This document shows, in pieces, positions 1-13,702 of a stretch of 23,939 nucleotides of DNA. Location: the IMG/VR virus record IMGVR_UViG_3300030520_000110, positions 1 through 23,939 of that record; one strand, 5' to 3'. The DNA comes from a virus. Within the stretch, counting starts at the first letter, position 1, and each line of letters begins with the position of its first letter. Under the pieces are notes generated by a model. It searched no databases and was not told the DNA's origin. It worked only from the letters and a program-made list of their open reading frames with translations. The translations under genes were made by a program, and so were the position numbers.

Positions 1-2074
1 CGGCGCCACCCTGCGCGATGACCCCGGCCTGATAGCCGCCGCTGCCAAGTGCAGCCGCATTATTGCAGCAGCCGTTGAACTCACTGCTTTCTATTGTACT
101 GTCGCCGAAGCTCGGGAAATTCGCGCCAGAAACGGCTGAACCGTACGTCCACGCGAGATAGCCCTTGAAATTGGAAACCGTAAAATTCAATGCATTAATC
201 ATATCCAACGGCGTATCCGCGCCGTAGCACATCACATCACGAACAACGCTTTGTGCATTGGCGTTGCTGCTGCCTGATGTTGCCTGAATGGTCAGGCATT
301 GCGTTCCCGGCCATGCTGCGCTGCCGTTCCATCCAGCGGCTCCGACCGGATAGAGAATCTCGAAGTTGCTAGCCTTGATGGCATAGTTCGAGGTGCAGGT
401 AAGCGCGTTGGCAGAGGCGACCGAAATAATAACCGATCCCTTCCCAGTGAGGTTAGCAAGCCCCTGGACTGCGTAACCGCCCCCAGCGGCCAACGCCCCG
501 CCATCGCCCTGATAACCCGCACCATCAATGCGTAGCGGCCCGGTACAGGTAAGTCCGCTGCTGATTGGATAGCTACCGGCCGGCAGAAATGCATACCCGT
601 TCGTGGCCGCAGTCAGCCAGTTTTGAAGTGCCGTCGTATCGTCATGAATGACATAGGATGAGGTGACGGCATTGCCGGCGCTCGCCGCCAGCGTCAGCGA
701 CGTGGAGCCTCCACCCGAAGAAACCGTCGTGACCAGCCAGTCCGGCAACGCGCTGGCGATCGGACAGGAAGACGGAATCCAGTCCGGGGGCGTCCAGGAT
801 TCGACACCCATGTCGTTATAAGCGGTTTGCGTGACGACTGCGATCGGCACCAGCGAGCCGGATTTATTACCGCAGACCAGATAAGCCGAAGGCGCGGTTC
901 CGCTGACAGGAGCGGTCCAAGCCAACTGATTAAAGTTCGTGCTGCTCAGCGTAGCAAAGCCAGTCGTGGTAGAAACCGCCGTGATGGTCGCACCGATCCC
1001 ACCGGCCGAATCCAACGATGCAATCGTATATTGATAGCTGGTTGAACCCGACGTACCGGCTTGTGTAATAGCCAGCGCAGTTGGCGGGTTGATGGCAAAG
1101 GAAGCCCCGGCATGATTGACGCGGATGCCTTGGCCATTGACGAAATCCTTAGCCGCACCCAGCACTAGCGTGGCGGATGAACCGGAGATCGTACCGGTCG
1201 TATTCTGGACCGAACCTGAGGTAGTTGCGGCCGGCAATGTCATCACCGAACTTGTGATAACAATACTAGATCCGGAGGCTGAAACCGTATTGCCGGGACC
1301 TCCAACGATAGATGGATTTCCTGTCAGGCCGTTTAGCGTCGCCACGCCCGCCGTCGCTGACGATGCAATCTGCCCGGGCGTTACATATTTGATCGATCCT
1401 GCCGCATTATCGTACAGCGGGATTTTATCATTCGTGGCATCCGGAGCCCCGCGCGCCGTCAATCCCTGGATGGTGAAATCAGTCGGCGCTACACTCGCTG
1501 TCGCGGTTGGATTGCCCTTGAAGGTCGCCGCCCCGACCAGAGCCAGATTGGCATTCGGAAGCAATCCAGTTACAGCGGTCGCCAGATTGACTTGGTTATA
1601 GGTGCCATCGCCACGAAAGAAAGTCGTGGTGTTGTTGGGAAACGCCGGCATTGCCCCAGGCAGAGACGATGTGACCTGATTGATCAGTGCCGTCAATTGC
1701 GAGTTGGTGTACTCTCCGATCTTACCTGCATTATCATATACCACACGCCCCGATGTGCCGCCCGTGATCGCCGTATTCCCAACCTGGATATTGAGAGCTG
1801 AAGGCGCGACCCCGCAATCCTGTAGCAACCCGGTAGTTCCATTGAAGCAAGCAAGATTGCCAGCCACCACAGGAGCGGTCGGCATAATCGAATTGATGAT
1901 ATTGTCGGAGATCGTCCGCGTGTTAAGCGGAAGAATCTGGAAATTCATATTGTCTGGGAAATTTGCGCTGACCTGTGCGTTCAACTGTACAGCGGTATAA
2001 GGTGCCTGCGCATGGCTATACCCAGTCATGGCGCATAGCAGTGCGACCGCCGCGATGATGCGTCGTGAGATCAT
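1..2074 (-). CDS. Tailspike-like protein with pectate-lyase fold and Sec signal peptide, 3' end outside window
   Basis: This open frame runs from an ATG at 2074 to the left edge: 691 codons with no stop seen, so the C-terminus is missing. Residues 1-22 (MISRRIIAAVALLCAMTGYS, then HA|QAP) look like a signal peptide. Residues 24-60 resemble the fibre-type start AQLNAQVxANFPDN. A linker follows with FFRGDGTY at 152-159 and TFKGNPTATAS-type repeats common in tail proteins. Residues about 335-422 look fibronectin-III-like. From D478-D479 the pattern DDTTALQNWL, FLPAGSYPISSGL and LRIDGAG is the classic start of a pectate-lyase-type right-handed beta-helix. The expected role is host polysaccharide binding or cleavage at the virion surface. 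It follows the fibre gene after 17 bases. The catalytic residues and trimer tip would lie outside the window. Fold confidence is good; the enzyme activity is inferred. Confidence 0.85.
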   Translation of the reverse strand, partial: MISRRIIAAVALLCAMTGYSHAQAPYTAVQLNAQVSANFPDNMNFQILPLNTRTISDNIINSIMPTAPVVAGNLACFNGTTGLLQDCGVAPSALNIQVGNTAITGGTSGRVVYDNAGKIGEYTNSQLTALINQVTSSLPGAMPAFPNNTTTFFRGDGTYNQVNLATAVTGLLPNANLALVGAATFKGNPTATASVAPTDFTIQGLTARGAPDATNDKIPLYDNAAGSIKYVTPGQIASSATAGVATLNGLTGNPSIVGGPGNTVSASGSSIVITSSVMTLPAATTSGSVQNTTGTISGSSATLVLGAAKDFVNGQGIRVNHAGASFAINPPTALAITQAGTSGSTSYQYTIASLDSAGGIGATITAVSTTTGFATLSSTNFNQLAWTAPVSGTAPSAYLVCGNKSGSLVPIAVVTQTAYNDMGVESWTPPDWIPSSCPIASALPDWLVTTVSSGGGSTSLTLAASAGNAVTSSYVIHDDTTALQNWLTAATNGYAFLPAGSYPISSGLTCTGPLRIDGAGYQGDGGALAAGGGYAVQGLANLTGKGSVIISVASANALTCTSNYAIKASNFEILYPVGAAGWNGSAAWPGTQCLTIQATSGSSNANAQSVVRDVMCYGADTPLDMINALNFTVSNFKGYLAWTYGSAVSGANFPSFGDSTIESSEFNGCCNNAAALGSGGYQAGVIAQGGA

Positions 2075-2091: not shown

Positions 2092-3987
2092 TTATCCGCG
2101 GTACTGCGCGGTCAGGAGCATCTGGTTGCTGCCAAAATAGGAGACGTTATTTGTGGTGACGCCGCCGAAGGCAGGATTTTCAAGAGGGTAGATTGTCGTG
2201 ATGCCGAGAGCCGGGGGAAAAATGCACTTCGATTTCAGGCTGCCCCCTGATAGGGCGCTGCTCGCAGATCCCGGATTGAACGTCATTGCTCCCGCTGCAC
2301 AGAACGAAGCAGGAGCCGGCGATGACGTATTGCTGTTGATGCCAATGCTGATCGCAGCCGAAACCGTCGCCGAGCTTAAGGCGGCAAACGTCGCGTTCTG
2401 GCTGAAATCGAGATCGACTACTTGTTCCGGCAAGCCCGTGAACGTGGTAATGACATTGTTGGTGTTTCCATTGTTGGAAACGATCCATCGATTGCCGCCG
2501 CCATCGGTCCAGCTTCCGGTGGAATCCTGCTCCTGCTGGATAATGTTCTGTTGATTGTAGGCGTTCCAGATGCCGAACTTGCGGTTTTGTCCGACCGTTC
2601 GATAAGCCGAGACCTGCCCCGCCGTTGAATCAATCGAGAGAGATCCGACATAAGTGCATTGATTGGCCGGGATGGTATAAGACGATAGCCCGTTATAGCC
2701 GACGATCGAAACCGAATTGACCCAGATCCCTTGCAACCGCGTGAGCTGCGCGGTACCAGCTCCCGTTCCCCGGCTCCCCGACCCCGCTGTTGGGACGGAC
2801 CAAGCTGGACCCGTAACTAGCGTCGGAACTCCGTTGTTGGAGAATACACAGGAGTCCTGAATGGCTGAAGCAGCGCTTCCGGCACTTGTCAGCGTCGCCG
2901 TCAATTCCGAGAATGTAATACCTTTGAACGCCGACCCGTTCCAGATCGGAATCTGATTGCCGTTATAGGGCGAATAAAAGATCGTGGCGACGCCAACCAC
3001 GTCACCAGTCTGCACCACATCTCCGGAGGCTTGCCCCACCAGATTGAGATAACCTTGAGGTGGCGCGAGCCCGGATGATGTGCCGCCGCTGCCCGAGGTT
3101 GATTCTGCCGGATTAACCAGATGAAATTCGCTGTTTGTAGAATCATAAACGATGAGCGGCTGATTGAAGGCATCGATCTCGCCTCCTGATAAGGCTGCTG
3201 GACCAGAAGTTGTATCTACTACGATCGGAAGCAGCGCACCTCCAGAAACTTGTACTGTTGCGGGTCCGGTATTGGAAGCAATAGCCCGAAACTGGATTGC
3301 TGCGCCGTCCTGCAATGCGAATGACGTATCGGTGATCTGGATAGCGTTGCCAGTGCCAGTAGCTAGGCCAGCCCAGAATATCCCCTGTGGAGAGGTCGAA
3401 GCCGTGAGTTTCGTGTATACTGTGTTCCCAAGGCTATCCTGCACCACCATGAGGTAGATGCCGGCACCATAAACGACCGCACAGCCGTTTTGATCGAGCG
3501 GGACGGGGTTCTGGTTGAGGGTGACTTCCCCGGCATCCTGCCATGTCTGCTTATAGGTCTGGGTATTCGGGATGTAGAACCCAACTGACCCGCCAGCCAG
3601 CGACGAATTGATCGAGGTAGAGGCCACCGGGATCAAAAGACCGCTTCCAGTGCCGCCTATTGAGGCTGCAGGGGCGCTTAAAACGTCTCCGACGACGTAC
3701 TGAATGCCGGGATTGAGGATTATGACGGCGGTGACAATCCCTCCTGAAACTGTTATATTCGCAGTCGCACCGGTCCCGGATCCGCCCGTTAAAGCGACCC
3801 CGCCATAGGTGCCATTTGTGTAGGAACTGCCGCCCGTGATCGAGCCGAGAAGCCCGACCATACCGTTGATTCCAGCCGTGGCTTGGAAGCACGTTTCTCC
3901 CGGAGGCAATATCGTGGCCTGCCCGAAGGCCTGCACACACGACAAGGCGACCGCAAAGGCTGCGGCGATGGCGGTTTTGAATTTCAT
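2092..3987 (-). CDS. Tail fibre or appendage protein with signal peptide and virion-attachment-like domain
   Basis: A 631-residue protein. Residues 1-22 (MKFKTAIAAAFAVALSCVQA, FG|Q) form a typical Sec signal peptide. Residues 50-120 are a Gly/Ser/Thr beta module (YTNGTYGG, GTGATANITVSGG, VGDVLSA, GGTGSG) seen repeatedly in phage appendage proteins. Residues 138-195 (FYIPNTQT, TWQDA, LNQNPVPLDQNGCA, GIYLMVVQDSLGNTV) match the arrangement of N-terminal virion-attachment domains in podophage spikes and fibres. Residues 225-292 (IQFRAIASNTGPATVQVSG, LIVYDSTNSEFHLVNP) are another common tail-protein beta domain. The C-terminal half is Ser/Gly/Asn-rich and not recognised. No enzyme motif was seen. 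It is the first gene after the plus-strand ORF and precedes the tailspike. A signal peptide in front of a virion-attachment domain is odd, because phage tails normally assemble in the cytoplasm. Only a weak ribosome site precedes the ATG. Confidence 0.8.
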   Translation of the reverse strand: MKFKTAIAAAFAVALSCVQAFGQATILPPGETCFQATAGINGMVGLLGSITGGSSYTNGTYGGVALTGGSGTGATANITVSGGIVTAVIILNPGIQYVVGDVLSAPAASIGGTGSGLLIPVASTSINSSLAGGSVGFYIPNTQTYKQTWQDAGEVTLNQNPVPLDQNGCAVVYGAGIYLMVVQDSLGNTVYTKLTASTSPQGIFWAGLATGTGNAIQITDTSFALQDGAAIQFRAIASNTGPATVQVSGGALLPIVVDTTSGPAALSGGEIDAFNQPLIVYDSTNSEFHLVNPAESTSGSGGTSSGLAPPQGYLNLVGQASGDVVQTGDVVGVATIFYSPYNGNQIPIWNGSAFKGITFSELTATLTSAGSAASAIQDSCVFSNNGVPTLVTGPAWSVPTAGSGSRGTGAGTAQLTRLQGIWVNSVSIVGYNGLSSYTIPANQCTYVGSLSIDSTAGQVSAYRTVGQNRKFGIWNAYNQQNIIQQEQDSTGSWTDGGGNRWIVSNNGNTNNVITTFTGLPEQVVDLDFSQNATFAALSSATVSAAISIGINSNTSSPAPASFCAAGAMTFNPGSASSALSGGSLKSKCIFPPALGITTIYPLENPAFGGVTTNNVSYFGSNQMLLTAQYRG

Positions 3988-4006
3988 TTAAGGGAATTCC
4001 GATTAG

Positions 4007-4315
4007 ATGAGAGAGCGCCTACTAACGAAACGCGGCAGACTTATTCTTCCCGTTACTGGGATCGGTTTTGCCATCCTCATCTGGGCTAGATTGAATGGTT
4101 TCGATTCTGGCCCCAAGGCGCTCATCATCATTTTCTTGACGAGCGTGCTGGGCGGCATCGTTCAATTCATTGCTGGTCGCGTCGAGGGCCAAGAAGAGCA
4201 TTCCGCGTCCCTAGAGATACGGGAAACGTCGAAGCCGTCCCCACCCGCGCAAGTCGGTTATGAAGGGCGGCGCCTCTTGACTGTTCGTCCATCAAATCCT
4301 GAACAAGAGCATTGA
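4007..4315 (+). CDS. Putative two-helix membrane protein on the opposite strand (possible moron)
   Basis: A 102-residue ORF on the plus strand, the only plausible gene in that direction. It starts with a basic stretch (MRERLLTKRGR) and has two hydrophobic segments, at about residues 12-29 (LILPVTGIGFAILIWARL) and 37-57 (ALIIIFLTSVLGGIVQFIAG). A polar tail follows. Bases 3988-4166 contain no better minus-strand gene, which favours this ORF, but its last 149 bases run antisense to the end of the ejection-protein gene. An AAGGG lies 12 bases before the ATG, which is far for a ribosome site. The gap to the divergent fibre start is only 19 bases, so its promoter would have to sit within the fibre gene. 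It could be a small holin-like or superinfection-exclusion protein carried as a moron, or a chance ORF. Function unknown. Confidence 0.42.
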   Translation: MRERLLTKRGRLILPVTGIGFAILIWARLNGFDSGPKALIIIFLTSVLGGIVQFIAGRVEGQEEHSASLEIRETSKPSPPAQVGYEGRRLLTVRPSNPEQEH

Positions 4316-6254
4316 AGTTTTTGTCACCCATCTTGCGGGTTAGAAGGGGTGCAATTTGCTGGTAGGCGTCCGCGTATCTGGCAGATCGCGCCCCCTCCAT
4401 GATGGTGTGAGGGCTCATCCACTCGGGAATGAAAGAAGTCGGCTTAGTCAGGTTGAGGTTTGAGAAATATCCCATTTCCCCGGGAGCGGGCGTCAGTGCG
4501 TTGACGCGCTCTTTCTTGGGCGTCGTCTGGCTTCCCCCAATAACATTCTGAACCTGATTTTTTCCCTTAACTTCCGCTTCCAAATCATCGATTAGGCGAC
4601 CAGACCGCTTATCACCGAACAGCATCTCTAGCTTGTCACGATTTGACCGCGCCAAGAGGGTATTGCGAGCCGTCGTGTCGCCACGAACGCTTAACTCGAG
4701 CATGTCTTGGATGGCCTTACGCGCGCCCTGAACACGGGCTGCCAGCTCTGGGCCGGAAAGCTGGTTCAGTTCATGGGCCAACTCTTCCTTGTCGGTTGAG
4801 CGGCTGAACGTTTTCTTACCTTCCTGGATTTGGTGAAGCAACTCTGAAGGCTCTGCGTATGTTTCGCGCGCCTGACGGTAGACCTGTCCAGCCGGCGTCT
4901 TGTCGATGGCTGAAAGCATGTCAGATTTCAAATTTAGCAGCTCGCGCGCCAAATCCTTATCTGGCTTTGTCTTGTCGAGTGCGTCCCCGATTCTGCGATC
5001 CAACCCGCGCTTTACGTAATCCCACGTTTCTGCAGTCGGGAACGCCTTCTGAGGACCTCCCGTGAAGAAGTTACGGTTGATCGGGCGTCCCGATATGCCG
5101 GAAAGCTCTTCCGCCTTGTCGAAGGCGCCAGAAGATTCAAGGCGCGGTATCAATGCCTTTATCTCATTGGTCGGATGAATTTGCATCGTCCGGAATTGAT
5201 TATAGAGCGGATCGGCGCCTGTTGCCCTAGCCTGCTCAATCGAGCGAGTTAGATTCGCCATGTTGGTATAAGGCACCGTATTCTTATTGAGTGACTGCTC
5301 AATGCGATCAGCCTGCCCCGCCGCGCGGATGCGATACGCTTCTCTAATCGCTTCTTTGTGAGGACCGGGAATATCAGCGAGGCCTCCAGCAATATCAGTC
5401 GTTGCGTTATTCACGTCCGCCAACATGCCTGCTGGTCCGTAGGTCTTTTTCGCTTGCATAATCGATGCGGGTGTTTCGCCTTCAACTGCGTTAACGAGCA
5501 TGTTTCGGCCAACCGAATTGACTCCAGCAAGTTCGCCTGTGGTCCGCGGCAGCCAGCTTGCGATTGCATCACCAGCCGCCGTGATGCCGTGCCCGGCCAT
5601 CGGCCCTAATGCGCCGCCAGCCATCGATAGAGGCACCGGGCCAAATAGACCCTGATTAAGCGGGTTATTGCCCTGCACAAGCTGATTTCCGGTCTCTAGC
5701 GCCCCCATCCCGGCAGCGCCTTGATAAACGCGAGCACCGAGAGAATTTCCAACCATACCCATCATGCGGGCACCAACTGGCGTCTCAGACATGGGGCCGA
5801 GTAGCATCGCATTTCCAGTCACGTCCGCGACCGTGGATGCTATCGGGTGCTGTTCCCCGTATTGCTGATTTCTCGTATCTTGGGCTTGCAGATTGTTCGC
5901 ATATCGATCGGCAAACGAGGTATTGGCGTATTGAGGATCCTTGCCTAGTCCTTGTCGGATCAGATCGGTTACAGGCTGAATCGCCGCGCCAGTTGCCGCG
6001 GCTGCTTTATCAGCCAAAGGCCCAAGGATTGGAACGCTACTTGCCATCCGGTCATTGAAACCGGACATAGCCTCCTCAGCCTTCGATACAGGACTATCAA
6101 GCTGCATGATAACTTTGGTTGGCTTGCCGTCTCGTTTTACGATTTCGGGCGCGCGGTCATATTTATTGAAAATGTCGTCAGGCGTGAACGATCCATCAGC
6201 AACAGGAGCGGCCTGACTATCTCGGGAATATCGATCGAGAATATCATCGCTCAT
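4167..6254 (-). CDS. Large ejection / internal virion protein, P22 gp16-position
   Basis: A 695-residue protein, last of the ejection-protein group and close in size to P22 gp16 (about 609). The N-terminus carries two copies of an acidic-aromatic motif, DDILDRYSRD (3-12) and DDIFNKYDRA (26-35). Residues 145-235 are rich in Gly, Ala and Met (LLGPMSETPVGARMMGMVGN, PLSMAGGALGPMAGHG) and could insert into or cross a membrane. The rest is mainly charged helix, including GPAGMLADVN and a predicted helical region at about 300-560, of the kind seen in large internal proteins of other podophages. No lysozyme or transglycosylase motif was found. The start overlaps the previous stop as ATGA (6251-6254). 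Its 3' end is overlapped antisense by the plus-strand ORF. Assignment rests on size, position and composition, not on clear similarity to gp16. Confidence 0.7.
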   Translation of the reverse strand: MSDDILDRYSRDSQAAPVADGSFTPDDIFNKYDRAPEIVKRDGKPTKVIMQLDSPVSKAEEAMSGFNDRMASSVPILGPLADKAAAATGAAIQPVTDLIRQGLGKDPQYANTSFADRYANNLQAQDTRNQQYGEQHPIASTVADVTGNAMLLGPMSETPVGARMMGMVGNSLGARVYQGAAGMGALETGNQLVQGNNPLNQGLFGPVPLSMAGGALGPMAGHGITAAGDAIASWLPRTTGELAGVNSVGRNMLVNAVEGETPASIMQAKKTYGPAGMLADVNNATTDIAGGLADIPGPHKEAIREAYRIRAAGQADRIEQSLNKNTVPYTNMANLTRSIEQARATGADPLYNQFRTMQIHPTNEIKALIPRLESSGAFDKAEELSGISGRPINRNFFTGGPQKAFPTAETWDYVKRGLDRRIGDALDKTKPDKDLARELLNLKSDMLSAIDKTPAGQVYRQARETYAEPSELLHQIQEGKKTFSRSTDKEELAHELNQLSGPELAARVQGARKAIQDMLELSVRGDTTARNTLLARSNRDKLEMLFGDKRSGRLIDDLEAEVKGKNQVQNVIGGSQTTPKKERVNALTPAPGEMGYFSNLNLTKPTSFIPEWMSPHTIMEGARSARYADAYQQIAPLLTRKMGDKNFNALVQDLMDEQSRGAALHNRLARVGTASTFPVSLGTRNALLGPRRDQQ

Positions 6255-7555
6255 TGTGAGTGAACATCTCCGAGCAACCCGTGACGATCAGCGATATTCA
6301 TGCCATTGCGTATTTTGTTAAGTTCCGAAGGAGGCAGCGTCTCTTTGAGCTTTTTCTGCTGGTCTTTGCTCATCAAATCATAAACGAATGCGCGAGGATC
6401 TTGCTTGGTACCCCAATCCACCATGAATTTATTGAAGGTGGACGGGTCAGCTTCTCCGCGATCGACCTTCGAATTGAATTCAAGGACGCCAGCCTGTCGC
6501 ATCCGCTCGACACCGAGCGCCACCTTGGAAAGCTCAAGTGCCGACAGTTTGTCCATATGAACGTTCGGATTGGACGTAACCGCCGTAGCGAGACCATCGT
6601 TCGTTTTTGGACCGAGTGTCGCCGCCGCCTGCGCCGAATACTGGTTGAAATATTTTTTGAGTTCGTTGAAATCCTTGATCTGATATGGATCAATTCCAGC
6701 GATCTTGCCTGCACCAAGACTGACGGCAGTAGATTTGATGTCGTTCCACCGCTCGGATGTTGGTCCGATATCGGTCTCTTTCATATTCTCCAGAATCGGG
6801 ATGGCCTGTCGGAGCGGGTTGACGCGCTGTCCATAATTTCCTGCAGCTTCGCTAGCTGCGGAATAAGCCTCGCCCGAGCGTGCGCTTGTTGCCGCTGCTG
6901 CGGGAGACAGGCCAGTCGGCGACGTGCCACCGTAGTTCGCAGAGCCGAGTGTGCTCTGTTGCGGAGCGCCCCCAGGTGAAGGAGGGGCCGTAACGCGCTG
7001 CGCAATTCCACTTGATCCGATCGCCATGTTCTGAATAGTTCGCGCCCACTCATGACGCGCAGCCTGATCCTTCGGGGCGTTGCCAACCACCGACAGAATC
7101 GTCGCGGTAGGCACGCCGCTGTTGCGCGCCGATGTCACCGCGAAGTTGCGCAAATCTTCATCCGAGATATTTGGCTTATCGGCGAGCGATCCGATGCCAT
7201 CCAGAAGCACCTTATTCTGCCCGGCCTGTAGGCCAAACATCTTCTGGGCGTTATCGATCTGCTTACCTTGGCGATCGAGAGCGCCAGCAGACGCCTCGCC
7301 CGCCATAAACCCGGCGTCCGGATTATCCTTGATGCCTTGCATTAGCTTTTGGGTATCGATCGAACCATCGTCGCCGATGGCGCCTTGATAGGCTTGTCCA
7401 ATTGCCTTTCGCGCATTGAACTGCTGCTGAAAGAGAGCGTTGGCATTAAGTTGCCCAACCATCCCGATTACTCTAGCCGGGTCGCCAGACAGTGCATTGC
7501 TGCCGCCCTGCGATGGCGAAAACGACGGGTAGGTCGGGGCGGGAACGTCGGGCAT
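6251..7555 (-). CDS. Internal virion / ejection protein, P22 gp20-position
   Basis: A 434-residue protein, similar in length to P22 gp20 (471) and in the equivalent place, between the gp7-like and gp16-like genes. The N-terminus is Pro/Ser/Gln-rich (PDVPAPTYPSFSPSQGGSN). A helical region follows with many Gln and Ala residues. Residues about 190-235 are a Pro/Gly/Ser/Ala linker. The C-terminal third is charged and helical (DFNELKKYFNQYSAQAAATL, ALELSKVALGVERMRQAGVL). There is no signal peptide, transmembrane helix or enzyme motif. The start overlaps the previous stop as ATGA (7555), and its own stop overlaps the next start in the same way, so it is probably translated in fixed ratio with both neighbours. 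A role in forming the DNA-ejection conduit is inferred from position and composition. Confidence 0.65.
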   Translation of the reverse strand: MPDVPAPTYPSFSPSQGGSNALSGDPARVIGMVGQLNANALFQQQFNARKAIGQAYQGAIGDDGSIDTQKLMQGIKDNPDAGFMAGEASAGALDRQGKQIDNAQKMFGLQAGQNKVLLDGIGSLADKPNISDEDLRNFAVTSARNSGVPTATILSVVGNAPKDQAARHEWARTIQNMAIGSSGIAQRVTAPPSPGGAPQQSTLGSANYGGTSPTGLSPAAAATSARSGEAYSAASEAAGNYGQRVNPLRQAIPILENMKETDIGPTSERWNDIKSTAVSLGAGKIAGIDPYQIKDFNELKKYFNQYSAQAAATLGPKTNDGLATAVTSNPNVHMDKLSALELSKVALGVERMRQAGVLEFNSKVDRGEADPSTFNKFMVDWGTKQDPRAFVYDLMSKDQQKKLKETLPPSELNKIRNGMNIADRHGLLGDVHSQ

Positions 7556-8085
7556 CAGCGCGCCATCCCTGAGTAGTTCGCGCTCAACGCCTTCATATGC
7601 TCCATGTGCTCATCTGGATTCGTGTTGTGGTGCTGTGCGGCCTCAGTAGCCCAATCGCCAGAGCCCAAATTGGTATTGCGGTGATGCTCAACGATGCCTT
7701 GTTCTGCTTGCACCGTTTGCGCCAGCATGGTCTGCATCCATTTGCGTTGTTGCAAGGGGTCGCTGGGTACTTGAGCCAATTGCTGCACGGCTTGCGGAGC
7801 AGATAAAATTCGCTCCGAGACAAGCTTGGTCACGCCGTCGATGATCTTGGATTTTAAATCGGACCGCCCGGCCGCAGGATCTTTCAACAGCACTGTCAGC
7901 TCACCCTTGATCGCGTCGAAGTGGCGCAGCGCAGCCACAGTCTGTTCGTGCGTCGGGGGCGGCGGTGGGGCTGCTGGAGGCGCTGCGCCACTGGCCGGCG
8001 GGCCGCTCGGCTGCAAACCGTTGGCCTGCGCGCCGGGCTGCGCCTGTGCAGGCGGCGGCATGCCGCTATCAAGTGCGTTCGGCAT
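7555..8085 (-). CDS. Proline-rich hypothetical virion protein in the ejection cluster
   Basis: A 176-residue protein not recognised as a known family. Residues 9-45 are very rich in Pro, Ala and Gln, including a run of prolines around 40-44. Residues 46-135 are predicted helical (HEQTVAALRHFDAIKGELTV, WMQTMLAQTVQAEQG). The C-terminus is His/Asn-rich (HHRNTN, HHNTNPDEHMEHM). It has no signal peptide or membrane helix. ATGA overlaps at both ends tie it to the gp7-like and gp20-like genes, so an internal virion or assembly role is likely. P22 has no gene in exactly this place, so this may be an extra ejection component or a chaperone for one. The reverse strand also reads open here, but that is a shadow of the Pro/Ala codons. 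Confidence 0.7.
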   Translation of the reverse strand: MPNALDSGMPPPAQAQPGAQANGLQPSGPPASGAAPPAAPPPPPTHEQTVAALRHFDAIKGELTVLLKDPAAGRSDLKSKIIDGVTKLVSERILSAPQAVQQLAQVPSDPLQQRKWMQTMLAQTVQAEQGIVEHHRNTNLGSGDWATEAAQHHNTNPDEHMEHMKALSANYSGMAR

Positions 8086-8828
8086 CAGGTGAAGCCCATC
8101 GCTTGACCGTACGCGTTCGACTGAGCATTCGTCACGCTGGCCGCATTCATATTGCCGATATTACCAATCTGGCTTGGCGTGTAGAGGCTATTTCCGCCAC
8201 CGTTTCCGAATAGCTGGCTGTAGAGCAGCGCATTCGATGCCGAACCGGCAGCCCCCGTGAGGCCGCCTGAGAGCGCATTAGCGCTGCCAAGCGTGCCAGA
8301 GGCCAGAGCGTTACCGGTATTGGTAAGCGTGCCGGCCTGTGCATTGCCGCTGGCGATAGCATTGCCTGCAAGAGAGCCCGCAGCATTCGCCCCTGTGTTG
8401 GCGTATCCCTGCAACGCATTGATCGTAGTGCCCCAAGTATTTTGCGCCAGGCCGTTGTTGTATTGAGAAATGGCTGCCGCAAGCGGTCCTGCGGAGGCCC
8501 CGGACTTGGCCGCAAGCGCGTTCGTTGCTGCCATCGTTCCATATTGTGAGGCGAACTGAAATCCAGGGGTCTGCGATAGCAGCGCGTTTTGGTTGGCGCC
8601 CGGCGTAATGAGGCCCTGCAAGGTGGGCAAGACGCTCTGGCCGGCCGAAATAAACGGATTCAGCGCGTTCTGCGCGGTGCCGAACATGCTTTGCTGCTGG
8701 GCAAGCGCCTGTTGCTGTTCGGCAACCTGTTGCGAAGCAGCGCTCTTCGAAGCGCTGGATCCTATCAGTGCCGAACCGAGAGAACCGGCGGCGCCAACTC
8801 CTGCGGCGATTAGGGCTGTTGTCGGCAT
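8085..8828 (-). CDS. DNA transfer / ejection protein, P22 gp7-like
   Basis: A 247-residue protein rich in Ala, Gly, Asn, Gln and Ser, close to P22 gp7 (229). The N-terminus has a small-residue helix (LIAAGVGAAGSLGSALIGSS), followed by a Gln/Ala coiled region (QQVAEQQQALAQQQSMF). Residues 84-110 carry the pattern LSQTPGFQFASQYG, ATNALAAKSG, which matches the LxxTPGYQFxLxQG...AAxG signature common in podophage DNA-transfer proteins. After that come Gly/Asn/Ala repeats. Such proteins are packed in the virion and leave with the DNA to help it cross the cell envelope. It directly follows the homing endonuclease gene, whose stop abuts this start (TGAATG). Its own stop overlaps the next start as ATGA. 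It probably followed the GNAT-like gene directly before the endonuclease arrived. Confidence 0.8.
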   Translation of the reverse strand: MPTTALIAAGVGAAGSLGSALIGSSASKSAASQQVAEQQQALAQQQSMFGTAQNALNPFISAGQSVLPTLQGLITPGANQNALLSQTPGFQFASQYGTMAATNALAAKSGASAGPLAAAISQYNNGLAQNTWGTTINALQGYANTGANAAGSLAGNAIASGNAQAGTLTNTGNALASGTLGSANALSGGLTGAAGSASNALLYSQLFGNGGGNSLYTPSQIGNIGNMNAASVTNAQSNAYGQAMGFT

Positions 8829-9305
8829 TCAAGCATCCTCCGACATAAGAAGAATGCTATTTCCATTATGCCCAAGCTTTACGAGAGATATGGCCGCCTG
8901 TGAAACGCCGTAACGCTCCGCAAGATCGACCTGACGTTCCGTCGAAGCGCGTATTTCCAGCACTTCTGACGGTTTTAACTTGCAATCTTTCTTTCTGCGA
9001 TTTTTCGACCAAGAATCTATTTGGTTCTCTTTATTTGTTCCGATCGATAGATGCTTGGGATTAACGCAAGAGGGATTATCACATGAATGAAGAGTAACCA
9101 TCCCTTCAGGGACCGTTTCACCTCTATAAATCAGAAGGGATGCGCGATGTGCAAACCACGTCTTCTTACCCCAACTAAAACATCCATAGCCCTTTGGACT
9201 CAATCTGGCATTCCAATGCCAGCATTCGTCATCGCCACCTTTGACAAAGAAGTGCTCAAACTTCTCTTTTATTGGCAGTCCTTTTTTTGCACGGTGTTTT
9301 GTCAT
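8829..9305 (-). CDS. Free-standing HNH homing endonuclease
   Basis: A 158-residue protein of the HNH_3 type. Visible landmarks are CWHW (28-31), GYG (39-41), AHR (52-54), H73 with C75, CNxxCVNPxHL-like residues ending at N82-P83-H85-L86, and N94. The region around residues 124-145 (ERQVDLAERYGVSQAAISLV) looks like a helix-turn-helix that could bind DNA. Such enzymes cut an allele lacking them and spread by repair; they have no virion role. It sits between the GNAT-like and gp7-like genes, overlapping the first by ATGA and abutting the second. Its DNA is visibly more AT-rich than its neighbours: two 60-base lines count 22 and 27 GC. That supports recent arrival. All HNH residues appear present, so it is probably active. 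Confidence 0.92.
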   Translation of the reverse strand: MTKHRAKKGLPIKEKFEHFFVKGGDDECWHWNARLSPKGYGCFSWGKKTWFAHRASLLIYRGETVPEGMVTLHSCDNPSCVNPKHLSIGTNKENQIDSWSKNRRKKDCKLKPSEVLEIRASTERQVDLAERYGVSQAAISLVKLGHNGNSILLMSEDA

Positions 9306-10057
9306 CTGACTTGGATCACCTTAAATGAACTATCTTCGACAAGAAGCAGAGCCGACCCGATGTCAATTAACAGGGGAGATCTGCTCACCATAGATATGGT
9401 GGCGTATCCAGAAAATCTGGCAAAGCGATTGTAGAGAACGACCGCTTTTTCTGGCTGGCCTGCATAGATCATCTCAGCACAGGCCCCGACGTAGCGATCA
9501 TGGCATTCCTCGTCGGGATGTTTTTCATGGAGTGCTTTATGGCGTGCGAACTCTTCGTCAAGCCGTTGGTGAAAGGCGCGACCGCTTGCGACCAAACACG
9601 ATGCGCTCCGCACCCAATCCTCGTATTTCAGCGACCAATAGGACATATCGGCCGGCTCTGGCTCGATTGGCCATGACCCCTTGCGGGTGAATTCCAGTGT
9701 GGCTCCCACCATCTTGCAGAACGCTTCAGCAGCCTTGTTGAAGGCTGGAACGCGGGTCTGCAAAATCATGCAGTCGGTATGGGTGAACATCCAGCGATAG
9801 GCTTCGCGTGAAGCACGGATAGCATGTCGGCCTCGGTGATTTTCCAGAAACGAGGTATGGACATCATAGATTCCCGGCTCAGCCTGCGCGAAGATGATGC
9901 CGCCACCTTCCGACACTAGCAGCACATTGAGCGGGTTCGAGACGATCGCCGACATATCGATATCTGGCTTCATGCCCGGCAGTTTTATCGCCTCAAAAAC
10001 AGAACTGTCATTCAATATTGGGTTAATCTCTGACGCATCAAACGATCGGTGGATCAT
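9302..10057 (-). CDS. GNAT-like acetyltransferase-fold protein in the P22 gp14 position
   Basis: A 251-residue protein. I choose the ATG at 10057 because it overlaps the gp10-like stop as ATGA; an ATG further upstream (10123) would overlap by 70 bases. The first 130 residues resemble a GNAT fold: VLLVSEGGGIIFAQAEPGIY, then FLENHRGRHAIRASREAYRW, a motif-A-like stretch, then FCKMVGATLEFTRKGSW. The C-terminal part (CHDRYVGACAEMIYAGQPEK, VLYNRFARFSGYATISMVSR, SPLLIDIG) is a second module seen in phage proteins. In P22 the gene after gp10 and the gp26 needle is gp14, a small head-assembly protein, and GNAT-like proteins are often found in that position. Enzymatic activity is unproven: the acetyl-CoA loop is imperfect, so a structural role is equally possible. 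Confidence 0.72.
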   Translation of the reverse strand: MIHRSFDASEINPILNDSSVFEAIKLPGMKPDIDMSAIVSNPLNVLLVSEGGGIIFAQAEPGIYDVHTSFLENHRGRHAIRASREAYRWMFTHTDCMILQTRVPAFNKAAEAFCKMVGATLEFTRKGSWPIEPEPADMSYWSLKYEDWVRSASCLVASGRAFHQRLDEEFARHKALHEKHPDEECHDRYVGACAEMIYAGQPEKAVVLYNRFARFSGYATISMVSRSPLLIDIGSALLLVEDSSFKVIQVR

Positions 10058-11658
10058 GCGGCATGCACGATTGGAGGGTCGAGGAACGCTTGATTTAAAC
10101 CCGTCGTCATCCCTGCGACCCAACTAAGCTCAAACACAAAATCTCTGCCTTGTCCTAACCCGCGCCACCGCAACATCGATCTATAATGTCCAGCACTCGC
10201 TAATTGTTTGGTGCGGTAATTTCCGAACGTCTCGCCGCCATCTTTTGACACACGTAGCGAGACCTGCGGAGGGAGTGCGACCGCTTGCGGCCCCCAAGAT
10301 AGATTTTTGCCTAACGTCGGAACGCCGCTCGATACCTCGGTCCATCCTGATCCTGGAACAGGCGTTACCGTGATGCCGACCGGCGACTGCGTACCAAATC
10401 CAGAACTGAATGCTCCAGAAATTTGCGGGACTTCTGCCGATCCTGCCAATGTCCCAGTTGCCATATCAGCCGTGAAACACGGTAGCGTAACCATGTGCAT
10501 TTCATTGACGACATGCGGGAACGATCGAATGCAGGAAATCGGCTGCCCGTTATCCGTCGCGTAGTTCGGGTCGAGTGCGTAAATCTGGCCGGTCTGCCAG
10601 TCCATGCCGACGTTGGTATCGTAGGCGAAAGCATGGAACGCAACACGCTCTCGGTTTAACTTACCGTTCTTGTCGGTATAGGCTCGCTCATGCCATTGAC
10701 TAGTAGCACGATCAAATCCCCACGACTTATTAGCCGAGGGGAAGTGGATCACAACGAAGCTATGGCCACCCTGCTGGTAGGTGTAGCAGATCGCATCGGT
10801 CAAAGTGGGATAGGTCAGCCACTCGTCTTCCAGCGCGTAGGTCGAGACGCGCTTGGCCCCATAACCCTCGATCATCAGGAAGATAGCGCGTCCATCCTTA
10901 TCCTGCGATAGAAAGAATGCGTTAACATCGATCGTGCAGACTGAATAAGGGGCGATTGTCCCGTGTGGAACGATCTGGCCAAATACTTCCTCGAAAGGAA
11001 AGATCGGATCTCCCGCGTCGAACCACGGCTCTGATGTCATTGTTCCGATCAGCCAAAGCGTGCGCTGGCATGCGATCAGTGTTTGAATCGGATCGCCAAA
11101 TGTTCCTTTCGAAGCCTGGTCGAGCGCGTTGAACGCTACCTGCTCGGATAGCGACACATACCAGTTGTTAGTCGCTATCTGATTGAAGCTAAAAACCGTA
11201 TCGAAGAACTGTGTCCGCGTCGCGCCAGTAAACAATCCCGTCGTATCGACGATCTGCGTCATCTGACGCGAGGTCATGTTGATCTGGTAGCCTAGCGGGC
11301 TGTTATCGACGAGGACGATTTCATTACCGTTCGACTGGCCGTTATCGTCCATCGATACCGGAGTGGACTGGTTTTGAATCTGTCCTAGCTCGGTGAACTG
11401 CCAATTCGGGTTGATGTAATAAACGTTGGGACCAACCACCCCGTATAGATCACCATTGGAAACTCGAAATACTCCGCGGCCCCTCCCCGGCACCGGAGGA
11501 GCGCCGAGAGGTCTATTTCCCGGTCTCACATAATGGGTGAATGGCGATTCCGGATCTGCCTCTTCCGGATTATTCTCGCAAAACACATTCACCGAGCGCT
11601 GCGCATTGGCAATTAGTGACCGATTTTGATATGCTCCGGAATTGAGCGGGATTTTCAT
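10054..11658 (-). CDS. Tail hub / packaged-DNA stabilisation protein, P22 gp10-like
   Basis: A 534-residue protein, somewhat longer than P22 gp10 (472). It begins with MKIPLNSGAYQNRSLIANAQ and RSVNVFCENNPEEADPE, then a loop with TxYxRPGNRPLG. This matches the gp10 family opening, where a short strand is followed by RSVNxxxExN and a PTPG-type turn. The body is beta-rich with repeated aromatic blades (LYGVVGPNVYYI, NNWYVSLS, LWLIGTMTSEPWFDAG, WGFDRATSQWHERAY, YALDPNYATDNGQPI), consistent with a beta-propeller hub. In P22 gp10 binds gp4 below the portal and holds the tailspikes. Here it is separated from the gp4-like gene by the four-gene A-B-A-B cassette. It overlaps both neighbours by ATGA. 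Confidence 0.85.
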   Translation of the reverse strand: MKIPLNSGAYQNRSLIANAQRSVNVFCENNPEEADPESPFTHYVRPGNRPLGAPPVPGRGRGVFRVSNGDLYGVVGPNVYYINPNWQFTELGQIQNQSTPVSMDDNGQSNGNEIVLVDNSPLGYQINMTSRQMTQIVDTTGLFTGATRTQFFDTVFSFNQIATNNWYVSLSEQVAFNALDQASKGTFGDPIQTLIACQRTLWLIGTMTSEPWFDAGDPIFPFEEVFGQIVPHGTIAPYSVCTIDVNAFFLSQDKDGRAIFLMIEGYGAKRVSTYALEDEWLTYPTLTDAICYTYQQGGHSFVVIHFPSANKSWGFDRATSQWHERAYTDKNGKLNRERVAFHAFAYDTNVGMDWQTGQIYALDPNYATDNGQPISCIRSFPHVVNEMHMVTLPCFTADMATGTLAGSAEVPQISGAFSSGFGTQSPVGITVTPVPGSGWTEVSSGVPTLGKNLSWGPQAVALPPQVSLRVSKDGGETFGNYRTKQLASAGHYRSMLRWRGLGQGRDFVFELSWVAGMTTGLNQAFLDPPIVHAA

Positions 11659-12080
11659 GAGCGGATTTGCGTCGCCGAGAAGAAGCCAAACGTGATGCGA
11701 GATCCAGGCCCTAGCGAATAGGGCTGGTTCAAACCGAGGGCATCGATCTGCAGGCCGGGCGGTGGATAGACTTTAAGAGCGTTGGCACCCTGATTGGCCA
11801 CAAGCTGCGACTGCCCAACGCCATATGCCGATAGCAATACGCCCGTACCAGCGACAACAGTATCGACTTCATTCCATTGATCACTGAGTTGCAGCGCCGT
11901 GGCCTGATTGGTGCCGGTCGCTTCTAGACCATCGCCTACCGTTGCAGTAGCTTGGTTCGTGTTGGCTTGGTTGATGACGCTGAGCAGATATTGATAACCA
12001 CTGCTCGACAGATTCCCCGTAGCCGGGTCTACAAATGGTTCCTGCGGGGGCGGAAGGTTGTTGCCGGTCGTCTGGGCCAT
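11655..12080 (-). CDS. Cassette protein B2: GTNQAT-domain protein without signal peptide
   Basis: A 141-residue protein. The N-terminus (NNLPPPQEPFVDPATGNLSS, then YQYLLSVINQ) matches the PfvDpxTGxxxxxxxxfLxxLxxx opening of many small phage structural proteins. Residues 51-137 are a beta-rich domain starting GLEATGTNQATALQLSD and containing EVDTV, a TGVLL strand, ANALKVYPPPG and a Phe-rich end (ITFGFF). The same domain, with GTNQAT at identical residue positions, occurs in the protein at 12283-12729, so the two are paralogs. It overlaps the A2 gene by ATGA at 12080 and the gp10-like gene by ATGA at 11655. No signal peptide is present. A tail-associated knob is possible; the function is unknown. 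Confidence 0.8.
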   Translation of the reverse strand: MAQTTGNNLPPPQEPFVDPATGNLSSSGYQYLLSVINQANTNQATATVGDGLEATGTNQATALQLSDQWNEVDTVVAGTGVLLSAYGVGQSQLVANQGANALKVYPPPGLQIDALGLNQPYSLGPGSRITFGFFSATQIRS

Positions 12081-12283
12081 CAGGCAACGTCTTCCGGATT
12101 TTCCCAGATGATCGACAGATGTCGTTTCGAGGCCTCAGCCAACGCTTCCCGGGATGTCATATGCGCGTTTCGCGGCGCGTTTTCCGATTTTGGCTTGAGC
12201 GACGTATAAAATACTAAGCCATCCTTCCAGCCGTAGATTGCCTTGCGAACCTTCCGAAGGTGGGAACTACGGCTGATTGGCAT
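12080..12283 (-). CDS. Cassette protein A2: small YGW protein
   Basis: A 67-residue basic protein (MPISRSSHLRKVRKAIYGWK...). It is not recognised, but it resembles the 64-residue A1 protein at 12732-12926: both have YGW (17-19 here), a basic/Pro-rich middle, a short helix rich in Ala/Glu, and a final hydrophobic-Trp-x-(x)-Pro motif (SIIWENP here). The distance from the YGW tryptophan to the last tryptophan is 41 residues here and 42 in A1. It starts with TAATG overlap to B1 and ends with ATGA overlap to B2, which argues strongly that it is translated. No signal peptide or membrane helix is present. It may be a chaperone or partner of the B protein encoded next to it. Confidence 0.75.
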   Translation of the reverse strand: MPISRSSHLRKVRKAIYGWKDGLVFYTSLKPKSENAPRNAHMTSREALAEASKRHLSIIWENPEDVA

Positions 12284-12729
12284 TAGTTCGAATACCAGAC
12301 GCCTGTTTTGCCGCTCGTAAAGCCCTGTGCCGTATTCGCATTCAGCGTATAGCTGGTCGTGTTGTTGATTTTATCCTGCGCTCCCAGCGAATTATTATTG
12401 ATCGCAGGATATATTGTGATGTTGTTAGCGGTATTGTTGATCACGGTAATCGTCATGCCGGCAAGGGCAAACGGCAATGCCGCGCCAGTGCTCGCGCTTG
12501 AGGTGTCAACCTCAAGGAACGAAACCAGATCTGCAAGCTGAAGAGAAGTCGCCTGGTTAGTTCCGATCGCGGTCAGGCCATTCTGGAAGGTAAAATTATG
12601 GCCCTGGGTGATTCCGTTGATGAAATCACCATCCATCTCCTGGAAACCAGTATGAGGGATGATGCCGATCGCGGCATAGCCCATCGAAGCAAACAAAAGC
12701 ATGAACCCAGCAATGAGAAGCCGACGCAT
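12283..12729 (-). CDS. Cassette protein B1: GTNQAT-domain protein with Sec signal peptide
   Basis: A 148-residue protein starting at 12729. The ATG at 12777 also reads open but would overlap the A1 gene by 46 bases. At 12729 the protein begins with a clear signal peptide (MRRLLIAGFMLLFASMGYA|A), and AAGGA lies 8 bases upstream. After cleavage the mature protein is a beta-rich domain: GLTAIGTNQATSLQLAD (51-67), FLEVDTSS, ALPFALAGMTITVINN, ANNITIYPAINN and a C-terminal TGVWYSN. It is a paralog of B2 (11655-12080), with GTNQAT at the same residue numbers, but B2 has a different, non-secreted N-terminus. It is separated from A1 by two bases and overlaps A2 by TAATG. Export to the periplasm is predicted. 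Its role is unknown. Confidence 0.8.
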   Translation of the reverse strand: MRRLLIAGFMLLFASMGYAAIGIIPHTGFQEMDGDFINGITQGHNFTFQNGLTAIGTNQATSLQLADLVSFLEVDTSSASTGAALPFALAGMTITVINNTANNITIYPAINNNSLGAQDKINNTTSYTLNANTAQGFTSGKTGVWYSN

Positions 12730-12731
12730 CG

Positions 12732-12926
12732 TTATAATCCTTTCTCGGATTGGTCTTTTGTGAGTTTTGGAATCCACATGATGTCGGCGCGCTGGCGCTT
12801 AAGCATGTCGTGCACTTCGGCCATTGTCTCTAGGCATACTGCCGGACGAATGGGAGAATCTGGTGGGTAACGGCTGACTAGATAGCCGCGGTGATTGTGC
12901 CAGCCATAGAGCAGTCTACGGGCCAT
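12732..12926 (-). CDS. Cassette protein A1: small YGW protein
   Basis: A 64-residue basic protein (MARRLLYGWHNHRGYLVSRY...). YGW is at residues 7-9, then PPDSPIRPAV, a helical stretch (ETMAEVHDMLKRQRAD) and IMWIP at 49-53. It matches A2 (12080-12283) in motif order and spacing. Its start overlaps the stop of the gp4-like gene as TAATG at 12926-12928, and the next gene begins two bases after its stop. No signal peptide or membrane helix is present. The family is not recognised. The repeated pairing of an A gene followed by a B gene suggests that A and B proteins act together. Confidence 0.75.
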   Translation of the reverse strand: MARRLLYGWHNHRGYLVSRYPPDSPIRPAVCLETMAEVHDMLKRQRADIMWIPKLTKDQSEKGL

Positions 12927-13702
12927 TAGTAAGAATCGGAACGGTAATTGTACGTGCTGCCATTTCTCGTGAGCTCGCGCGGATAACGAAGAGTCGGAAT
13001 TTGCGCGTTCGCCTTTCGAATGATGTTCTTGCCCTGCGCTGCCAGAATATTCAGGTCAGGATCGCGCGGCATCTGGAATGCGACCTTGAACCGGCGCGCG
13101 AGACACCATTCTAGGGCGGCGCCGTATTCCGGTGGAAACATCATCGTCGCTTGCAGATTTGGAAACTGCTGCAAGACCTGTTTGTAAAGAAAATGAATCT
13201 CATAGATTCCGGCTTGCGGGATCGGCCATGGCTTTAGCCATCCGATCGGCCAACCTGGATCATAGAAAACAGCGGACGAAAACGTTCCCAGCGTCTTGAG
13301 CCTGATCGCCGCGTAGTCCTCATGAGCATCGATCACTTCAAGAGGCCAGTCGAACGGCTGCGTACCGGCGTTAGGAGCCGGAGAGCCGTTGTTCACGACC
13401 TGGCGCAAGAATGCGAATTCAAGGCGATCGGGGCGCGGGTTGATGTTGTAGTTCTGGCCTGCCCCTACGGTATAGGTCTGCGCTCCGGTTGACAGGAATC
13501 CAACATCCTCCAGCCGAAACACCATGTAACGTTCGTGCTGCCATTGCGCGATCATGCGGTTGGCGATCGTGAACGCCTTGTTGATGACGGCAGGCTCGAT
13601 ACTCTCATCAAGCCCGACGACGCCAGCCGTTACCAAGGCATCGGTCAGCAGCGCCCCTACATTGGTAGGTAGAGGAAGCTGCTGAGCCGGAGCGTTGGCC
13701 AT
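12926..13702 (-). CDS. Head-completion / tail accessory factor, P22 gp4-like
   Basis: A 258-residue protein, longer than P22 gp4 (166). The first 60 residues are a helical region with TNVGALLTDALVTAGVVG, then IEPAVINKAFTIANRMIAQW, the ALxxLNxMLxxW-type pattern of gp4 and related head-completion adaptors. A beta-rich insert follows (LSTGAQTYTVGAGQNYNINP), and a C-terminal helical stretch with FPPEYGAALEWCLARRF. gp4 docks under the portal after packaging and keeps DNA inside. The start abuts the previous stop exactly (TAAATG) and its stop overlaps A1 as TAATG. The gene lies between the coat block and the cassette, as expected for gp4. The extra length is mostly the middle insert and the Arg/Tyr-rich C-terminal tail (RNGSTYNYRSDSY). 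Confidence 0.85.
   Translation of the reverse strand: MANAPAQQLPLPTNVGALLTDALVTAGVVGLDESIEPAVINKAFTIANRMIAQWQHERYMVFRLEDVGFLSTGAQTYTVGAGQNYNINPRPDRLEFAFLRQVVNNGSPAPNAGTQPFDWPLEVIDAHEDYAAIRLKTLGTFSSAVFYDPGWPIGWLKPWPIPQAGIYEIHFLYKQVLQQFPNLQATMMFPPEYGAALEWCLARRFKVAFQMPRDPDLNILAAQGKNIIRKANAQIPTLRYPRELTRNGSTYNYRSDSY

Follow-up and report, generated by a model that had tools for sequence, protein, structure and literature searches.

Homologous but anciently separate A-B gene pairs and predicted exported tail proteins in a lineage of P22-like phages

The IMG/VR virus record IMGVR_UViG_3300030520_000110, analysed here over its complete 23,939 bp (the window), carries a minus-strand run of the genes gp4, A1, B1, A2, B2 and gp10, in which small A proteins alternate with B proteins that contain a beta domain; neighbouring genes overlap by 1-4 nt or are 2 nt apart. 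About 50 related IMG/VR loci (designated L followed by a number) were gathered with B, A and gp10 sequences and their genes were mapped by profiles; all sequences are metagenomic except those of the cultured controls. According to this comparison A1-B1 and A2-B2 are homologous but anciently separate pairs, which split before these phages diverged. The homologies and families, changes of gene order, domain identities, signal peptides, cysteine patterns and the link between A1 and the signal peptide of B1 are all read from sequence. New among these patterns are the co-occurrence of A1 with B1 proteins bearing a predicted signal peptide, the two cysteines in such B1 proteins, and the predicted signal peptides together with even cysteine numbers on the fibre and spike.

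All genes named here for the window lie on the minus strand. A1 (12732..12926) encodes a basic protein of 64 amino acids (aa; isoelectric point, pI, 9.6) from a family of at least 30 members, which we regard as the companion of a putatively exported B1. B1 (12283..12729; 148 aa) consists of a predicted signal peptide, a conserved arm and an XD1-type beta domain. Its start is an ATG with an AGAAAGG ribosome-binding site, the GTG open reading frame (ORF) beginning at 12777. The predicted signal peptide (12673..12729; hydrophobicity 2.47) is MRRLLIAGFMLLFASMGYA, followed by AIG. A2 (12080..12283; 67 aa, pI 10.0) is by sequence and profile comparison the A1 homologue and the partner gene of B2, and B2 (11655..12080; 141 aa) combines a tail-adaptor N-terminus with an XD1-type beta domain. 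An earlier note on this DNA had placed an A1-B1-A2-B2 series between gp4 and gp10, and our gene calls agree with it in arrangement and position. The distance which it gave from YGW to the last tryptophan, 42 and 41 residues in the two A proteins, is correct, and GTNQAT occupies residues 56-61 of both B proteins if the ATG is taken as the start of B1. The homology it proposed within both protein types is likewise found. B1 and B2 match by BLASTP with E=2e-11 and 47% identity over 62 aa. As single sequences A1 and A2 match weakly (E=0.006, with 3/1000 shuffles equally good), while their families align by hhalign with a probability of 96.3 and E=1.8e-9, and the A2 profile picks up A1 members with E down to 2e-5.

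By fold the B domain is XD1-like, as judged from a predicted structure. The AlphaFold2 model of the window B1 domain (predicted local distance difference test score, pLDDT, ~95) matches Solidus gp83 (Z 11.4), residues 79-175 of CBA120 TSP4 (Z 9.2), a KP1 baseplate protein (Z 9.1), T4 gp9 (Z 7.7), T4 gp10 (baseplate 5iv5 chain AC, residues 49-146; Z 7.3) and the Pa223 capsid spike (Z 7.2), and the secreted proteases CpaA and StcE are also among the matches. The domain is assigned to the XD1 type because these matches include those published for the XD1 domain of TSP4, namely T4 gp9, T4 gp10, CpaA and StcE (PMC8825819); with 83-90 residues aligned at a root mean square deviation of 2.3-2.8, the likeness to XD1 proteins is one of fold only. 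The knob that the earlier note saw in B thus agrees with the predicted knob-like beta domain. Direct tblastn searches of 50,697 phage records with B1, B2, A1-type and A2 proteins gave no usable match, Pfam and PHROG searches with A and B gave nothing above noise (for A, DUF2188 at just E=0.025), PDB sequence searches gave no match, and no relative was found in GTDB genomes with the A1 and B1 profiles. Outside P22-like phages, L048 (2344-3059), L049 (5572-6290) and L050 (5201-6348) carry two B-domain genes of ~120 aa each; those of L048 and L049 are adjacent and represent a true tandem arrangement of the domain. In L038, L039, L042 and L027 the B domain lies inside phage proteins of very large size (698 to 2101 aa).

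Judged by its sequence, B2 is the tail-tip adaptor of the slot that gp26 fills in P22, moved upstream of gp10 and provided with a B-type knob. In all five cultured relatives (PAE2, P26218, DSL-LC05, VvAW1 and phiAX1) the protein encoded after gp10 begins with the motif P..PhVD..G..W..FL..L..RTG. A profile hidden Markov model (HMM) for which such post-gp10 genes were taken from other phages alone has a single hit on each contig, and since in the window clade this hit is B2 (E=1e-8 in the window, 6e-13 in L014), we class B2 by its N-terminal motif as the moved homologue of the post-gp10 adaptor, despite its position 5' of gp10. The putative attachment peptide of the window B2 (NLPPPQEPFVDPATGNLSSSGYQYLLSVINQ) covers 11946..12080, and the adaptor HMM finds no needle or adaptor gene in the usual slot after gp10. 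B2-type genes lie 5' of gp10 in the window clade and 3' of it in most relatives. In PAE2, P26218, DSL-LC05 and VvAW1 gp4 abuts gp10; in phiAX1 two unrelated genes stand between them. The distal part of the post-gp10 adaptors varies from phage to phage and consists of collar fibre domains, PHROG 11393 fibre domains or a B domain. In the window B2 only ~45 of the 141 aa precede the beta domain, and there is no long coiled-coil shaft as in P22 gp26. Homology of B2 with P22 gp26 itself was considered and rejected, as B2 has neither a gp26-like N-terminus nor a long trimeric coiled-coil shaft; P22 gp26 is not found by the post-gp10 adaptor HMM (-1.4 bits).

B1 appears to be the exported form of a free-standing XD1 domain. 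Most B1 proteins begin with a predicted signal peptide, whose end corresponds to the start point of the signal-less B1 proteins of other phages. By our own rule B1, fibre and spike of the window all show an n-h-c arrangement with small residues at -3/-1, which is the layout of substrates of Sec and signal peptidase I. Exactly two cysteines follow the signal peptide in 30/32 of the B1 proteins that have one, compared with 2/9 of those without (p=5e-5; phylogeny-corrected p=0.002). These pairs occupy at least three alternative sets of positions, as would be expected if disulfides had arisen several times in an oxidising compartment. The statement of the earlier note that one B is secreted and the other has a phage structural N-terminus is matched by the predicted signal peptide of B1 and the adaptor-type N-terminus of B2. 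In L026 (5896-6888) and L044 (4794-5546) signal-less B1 proteins with long C-terminal fibre-like extensions are encoded, which suggests an origin of B1 as a normal fibre or decoration protein of the virion.

Predicted signal peptides are also found at the start of two window genes located after gp16. The first (3987-2092, i.e. 2092..3987) encodes a tail fibre or spike (PHROG 5342 tail fiber, E=2e-10) with the signal peptide MKFKTAIAAAFAVALSCVQAFG before QATILPP and 6 mature cysteines; the second (2074-2, i.e. 2..2074), which runs off the contig, encodes a spike-like protein with MISRRIIAAVALLCAMTGYSHA before QAPY and 10 mature cysteines. Such signal peptides on fibre and spike recur across the lineage, also in phages with a signal-less B1 or none. 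Among proteins of at least 300 aa 38/205 were scored as having a signal peptide in the lineage versus 3/65 in P22-like controls, two of these 3 in phiAX1, and the signal-peptide proteins of this size have even rather than odd cysteine numbers (33 even to 3 odd, p=2e-7; 66 to 68 in the rest). The mature N-terminus of the fibre is homologous to tailspikes of cultured phages from their residue 2 onward (P26218 and PBR31, best E 1e-18; PAE2, E 1e-7), so that the predicted signal peptide sits directly before the virion-anchor domain. In L001, of which 60 of 60.3 kb were read, every fibre-like protein of at least 300 aa has a signal peptide. A literature search that missed most subscription journals found no report of signal peptides on tail fibres or tailspikes. 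At 3994-10643 of the L001 contig (L181) genes for secreted proteins of 1525 and 310 aa flank one for an acyltransferase-like membrane protein, and together they may form a surface-modification cluster.

The presence of A1 follows the signal peptide of B1. Among 41 non-redundant loci linked to gp4, A1 is present in 32/32 with a signal-peptide B1 and in 0/9 without, and the loci which had not been found through A1 show no discordance either (17 with both, 9 with neither; p=3e-7). A Pagel-type test of A1 against the signal peptide on the gp10 tree gave a likelihood ratio of 25.9 (p=3e-5), and A2, used as a control in the same test, gave p=0.41. In phages with a signal-less B1 no A1 was found over whole contigs of up to 58 kb. 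Loci held out and reached via B1 agree in 5/5 cases: L110 and L113 have both traits, L124, L125 and L127 neither. A is predicted to be a small beta-beta-beta-alpha-beta protein (pLDDT 89.7 for A1), for which a fold search was uninformative (best Z 4.6). The median pI of A proteins is 9.7-10, that of mature B1 is 4.4. No A gene in intact surroundings lacks an adjacent B, and A2 moves together with B2. L070 carries A genes at two places (7986-8201 and 10490-10711), on the 3' side of B1 and on that of the post-gp10 adaptor; the second is basal to the A1 clade. The A-B partnership which the earlier note assumed holds from the side of A, but many B proteins have no A at all, and its suggestion of a chaperone role for A could hold only if narrowed to A1 and the exported form of B1, which A1 tracks.

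The explanation that we favour, and which we hold tentatively as still somewhat short of probable, joins the two old A-B pairs to these predictions. B2 would be a distal tail plug or adaptor seated on gp10 and bearing an XD1-type beta knob. B1, the tail fibre and the spike-like protein would be exported by host Sec, would form disulfides in the periplasm and would attach to released virions at or after lysis. A1, a small basic and presumably cytoplasmic protein, would be used only when the acidic B1 is exported, and most likely would bind pre-B1 and keep it from folding, trimerising or prematurely assembling before its export. In P22 the tailspikes join last, and particles lacking tails can take them up in vitro, so late docking is possible in principle. 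That a P22-like lineage indeed finishes its tail outside the cytoplasm, with spike, fibre and free XD1 domain exported through Sec, disulfide-bonded and docked at or after lysis, and with A1 handling the XD1 domain, seems to us conceivable though rather doubtful.

Several points weigh against this explanation. The signal peptides were called by our own rule and not by SignalP, and the window B1 has a predicted signal peptide but no cysteine. In L119, the single exception to the link of A1 with exported B1, an exported B1 is encoded away from gp4, among secreted genes, with no A in 47 kb. Many B2 genes have no A beside them and several B1 phages have none at all, and because of this A cannot be needed for the fold of B. 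Finally, B1 and B2 are no more alike within one genome than between genomes (p=0.85).

The main rival, unlikely in our view, holds that the exported proteins do not belong to the virion and act at the cell surface: B1 would be a superinfection-exclusion factor or receptor decoy, and the fibre and spike-like proteins would be secreted depolymerases that clear surface polymers of the producing cell for the escape of progeny. Known exclusion proteins of phages are exported. The Ltp family is one example (PMC3952083). In the cultured Acetobacter phage phiAX1 an exported protein encoded between gp4 and gp10 carries the annotation glucanotransferase, and the exported B1 of L119 lies beside O-antigen-ligase-like and other secreted genes. 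However, directly after its signal peptide the fibre retains the N-terminal domain found in virion tailspikes, which a free enzyme would not need, L001 would be left with no other spike for its virion, and B1 does not track B2 within genomes. The special case of B1 as a receptor decoy mimicking B2 was rejected on this last ground, the similarity of B1 and B2 within genomes not exceeding that between genomes. In L119 (3459-7670 of a 47-kb contig) the O-antigen-ligase-like membrane protein next to B1 is apparently split in two ORFs, and two secreted fibre-like proteins are encoded beside it. In phiAX1 (L189, 26418-29312) the two proteins between gp4 and gp10, a fibre-like protein with 4 cysteines and an annotated cycloisomaltooligosaccharide glucanotransferase with 6, both have a signal peptide, which the annotated start of the latter omits.

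A1 might also have no functional tie to B1 export, B1 and A1 being inherited as one block in part of the family. In almost every locus A1 is the next gene 3' of B1, and about four changes on the tree suffice to explain the distribution. Such an explanation is distinctly improbable, as both traits change on the same branches, the corrected association is significant (p=3e-5) while the A2 control is not, and A1 of L060 has moved behind B2 and been retained with B1 still exported. The window itself is a further case: its B1 belongs with the signal-less B1 proteins of L057-L059 and its A1 with those of L001, L014 and L020, yet a signal peptide is again present.

We give still less credence to the view that the hydrophobic N-termini are membrane- or virion-anchoring segments of proteins assembled in the cytoplasm. 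Podovirus ejection proteins do interact with membranes, and cleavage of the N-termini rests on prediction; but the n-h-c layout, in which A-x-A-like sites immediately precede the start point of signal-less homologues, the confinement of even cysteine counts to these proteins and the alternative cysteine pairs in B1 all argue against anchors.

The trees explain why the pairs must be regarded as old. B1 (25 sequences) and B2 (17) form clades apart from each other (support 98/85 and 99/94); B domains from further phages branch between the two, and the A1 and A2 clades are likewise apart (99/96). No DNA similarity exists between the A1-B1 and A2-B2 halves of the window. The usual order in relatives is gp4-B1-A1-(gp14)-gp10-B2-(gp14)-gp7. 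Window-like phages have B1-A1-A2-B2-gp10 (L001, L014, L020) or B1-A2-B2-gp10 (L057-L059), gp10-A2-B2 is found in L036, L051, L124, L125 and L127, and A1 precedes B1 in the window only, among the relatives mapped. The tandem duplication which the earlier note proposed from the A-B-A-B order and the homology within the window is therefore refuted as a recent event, because the copies are not closest relatives and their splits predate the divergence of the phages, the halves share no DNA similarity and all relatives have another gene order. The window gp10 is sister to that of L001 and its A1 groups with L001, L014 and L020, while its B1 is sister to the signal-less B1 of L057. The simplest history would thus be an L001-like phage whose B1 was replaced by an L057-like B1 placed after A1.

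The module is flanked upstream by the gp4-like head-tail adaptor gene (12926..13702; PHROG 12985, E=3e-19, and PHROG 637 head-tail adaptor), which precedes B1 also in relatives, and downstream by the gene of the gp10-like head closure protein Hc3 (10054..11658; PHROG 578, E=2e-74). A gp14-like gene (9302..10123; PHROG 651, DUF2824) directly follows gp10. Between gp14 and gp7 the window has an HNH endonuclease gene (8829-9305; PHROG 1872, HNH_3), which was not seen there in the mapped relatives.

In tailed phages, tail assembly is assumed to take place in the cytoplasm. Predicted signal peptides in front of a tailspike anchor domain, together with paired cysteines only in the putatively exported proteins, suggest that one environmental phage group may build part of its tail elsewhere. 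If so, receptor-binding proteins could use disulfides, phage yield would depend on host secretion, and tail completion would be separable from head assembly and directly testable. In addition A and B1, two protein families without a name, gain a first testable role.

The window shares with the P22 tail machine the order gp4-gp10-tip protein-gp14-gp7-gp20-gp16. It differs from it by genes between gp4 and gp10, by a tip gene upstream of gp10, by a B2 N-terminus that is not recognisably that of gp26, and by predicted signal peptides on fibre, spike and B1. In P22 itself gp10 overlaps with gp4 and is followed by gp26, so that the earlier note was right to call the A-B module absent there. Small assembly chaperones such as Tfa and T4 gp57A/gp38 assist phage tail fibres. 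Like them, A is a small protein encoded beside a tail beta protein; unlike them, A1 tracks the signal peptide of B1 and not a fibre, and no sequence or fold match to them was found for A. Comparison of A with known tail-fibre chaperones gave no PHROG, Pfam or PDB match, an absence which for a 64-aa protein is no disproof. The cultured post-gp10 fibre or adaptor genes (P26218 gp31, PAE2, phiAX1_470, DSL-LC05 and VvAW1 gp06), one per genome, have the same N-terminal peptide as B2 but lie 3' of gp10 with other distal domains; PBR31 orf027 is likened to them solely from its position and annotation. That the distal domains of tip proteins can be exchanged was already known (PMC3741392). The tailspikes PBR31 orf34, P26218 gp26 and that of PAE2 begin at the anchor domain, whereas the window fibre has a predicted signal peptide before the homologous domain. 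Signal-peptide proteins between gp4 and gp10 occur also in the cultured P22-like phage phiAX1; the two encoded there are fibre-like and glucanotransferase-like and not B1 and A1. In T4 gp9, T4 gp10 and TSP4 XD1 is a trimeric spacer within large baseplate or spike proteins (PMC8825819), whereas here the XD1-like domain stands free, as B1, or forms the tip of a 141-aa adaptor, as in B2.

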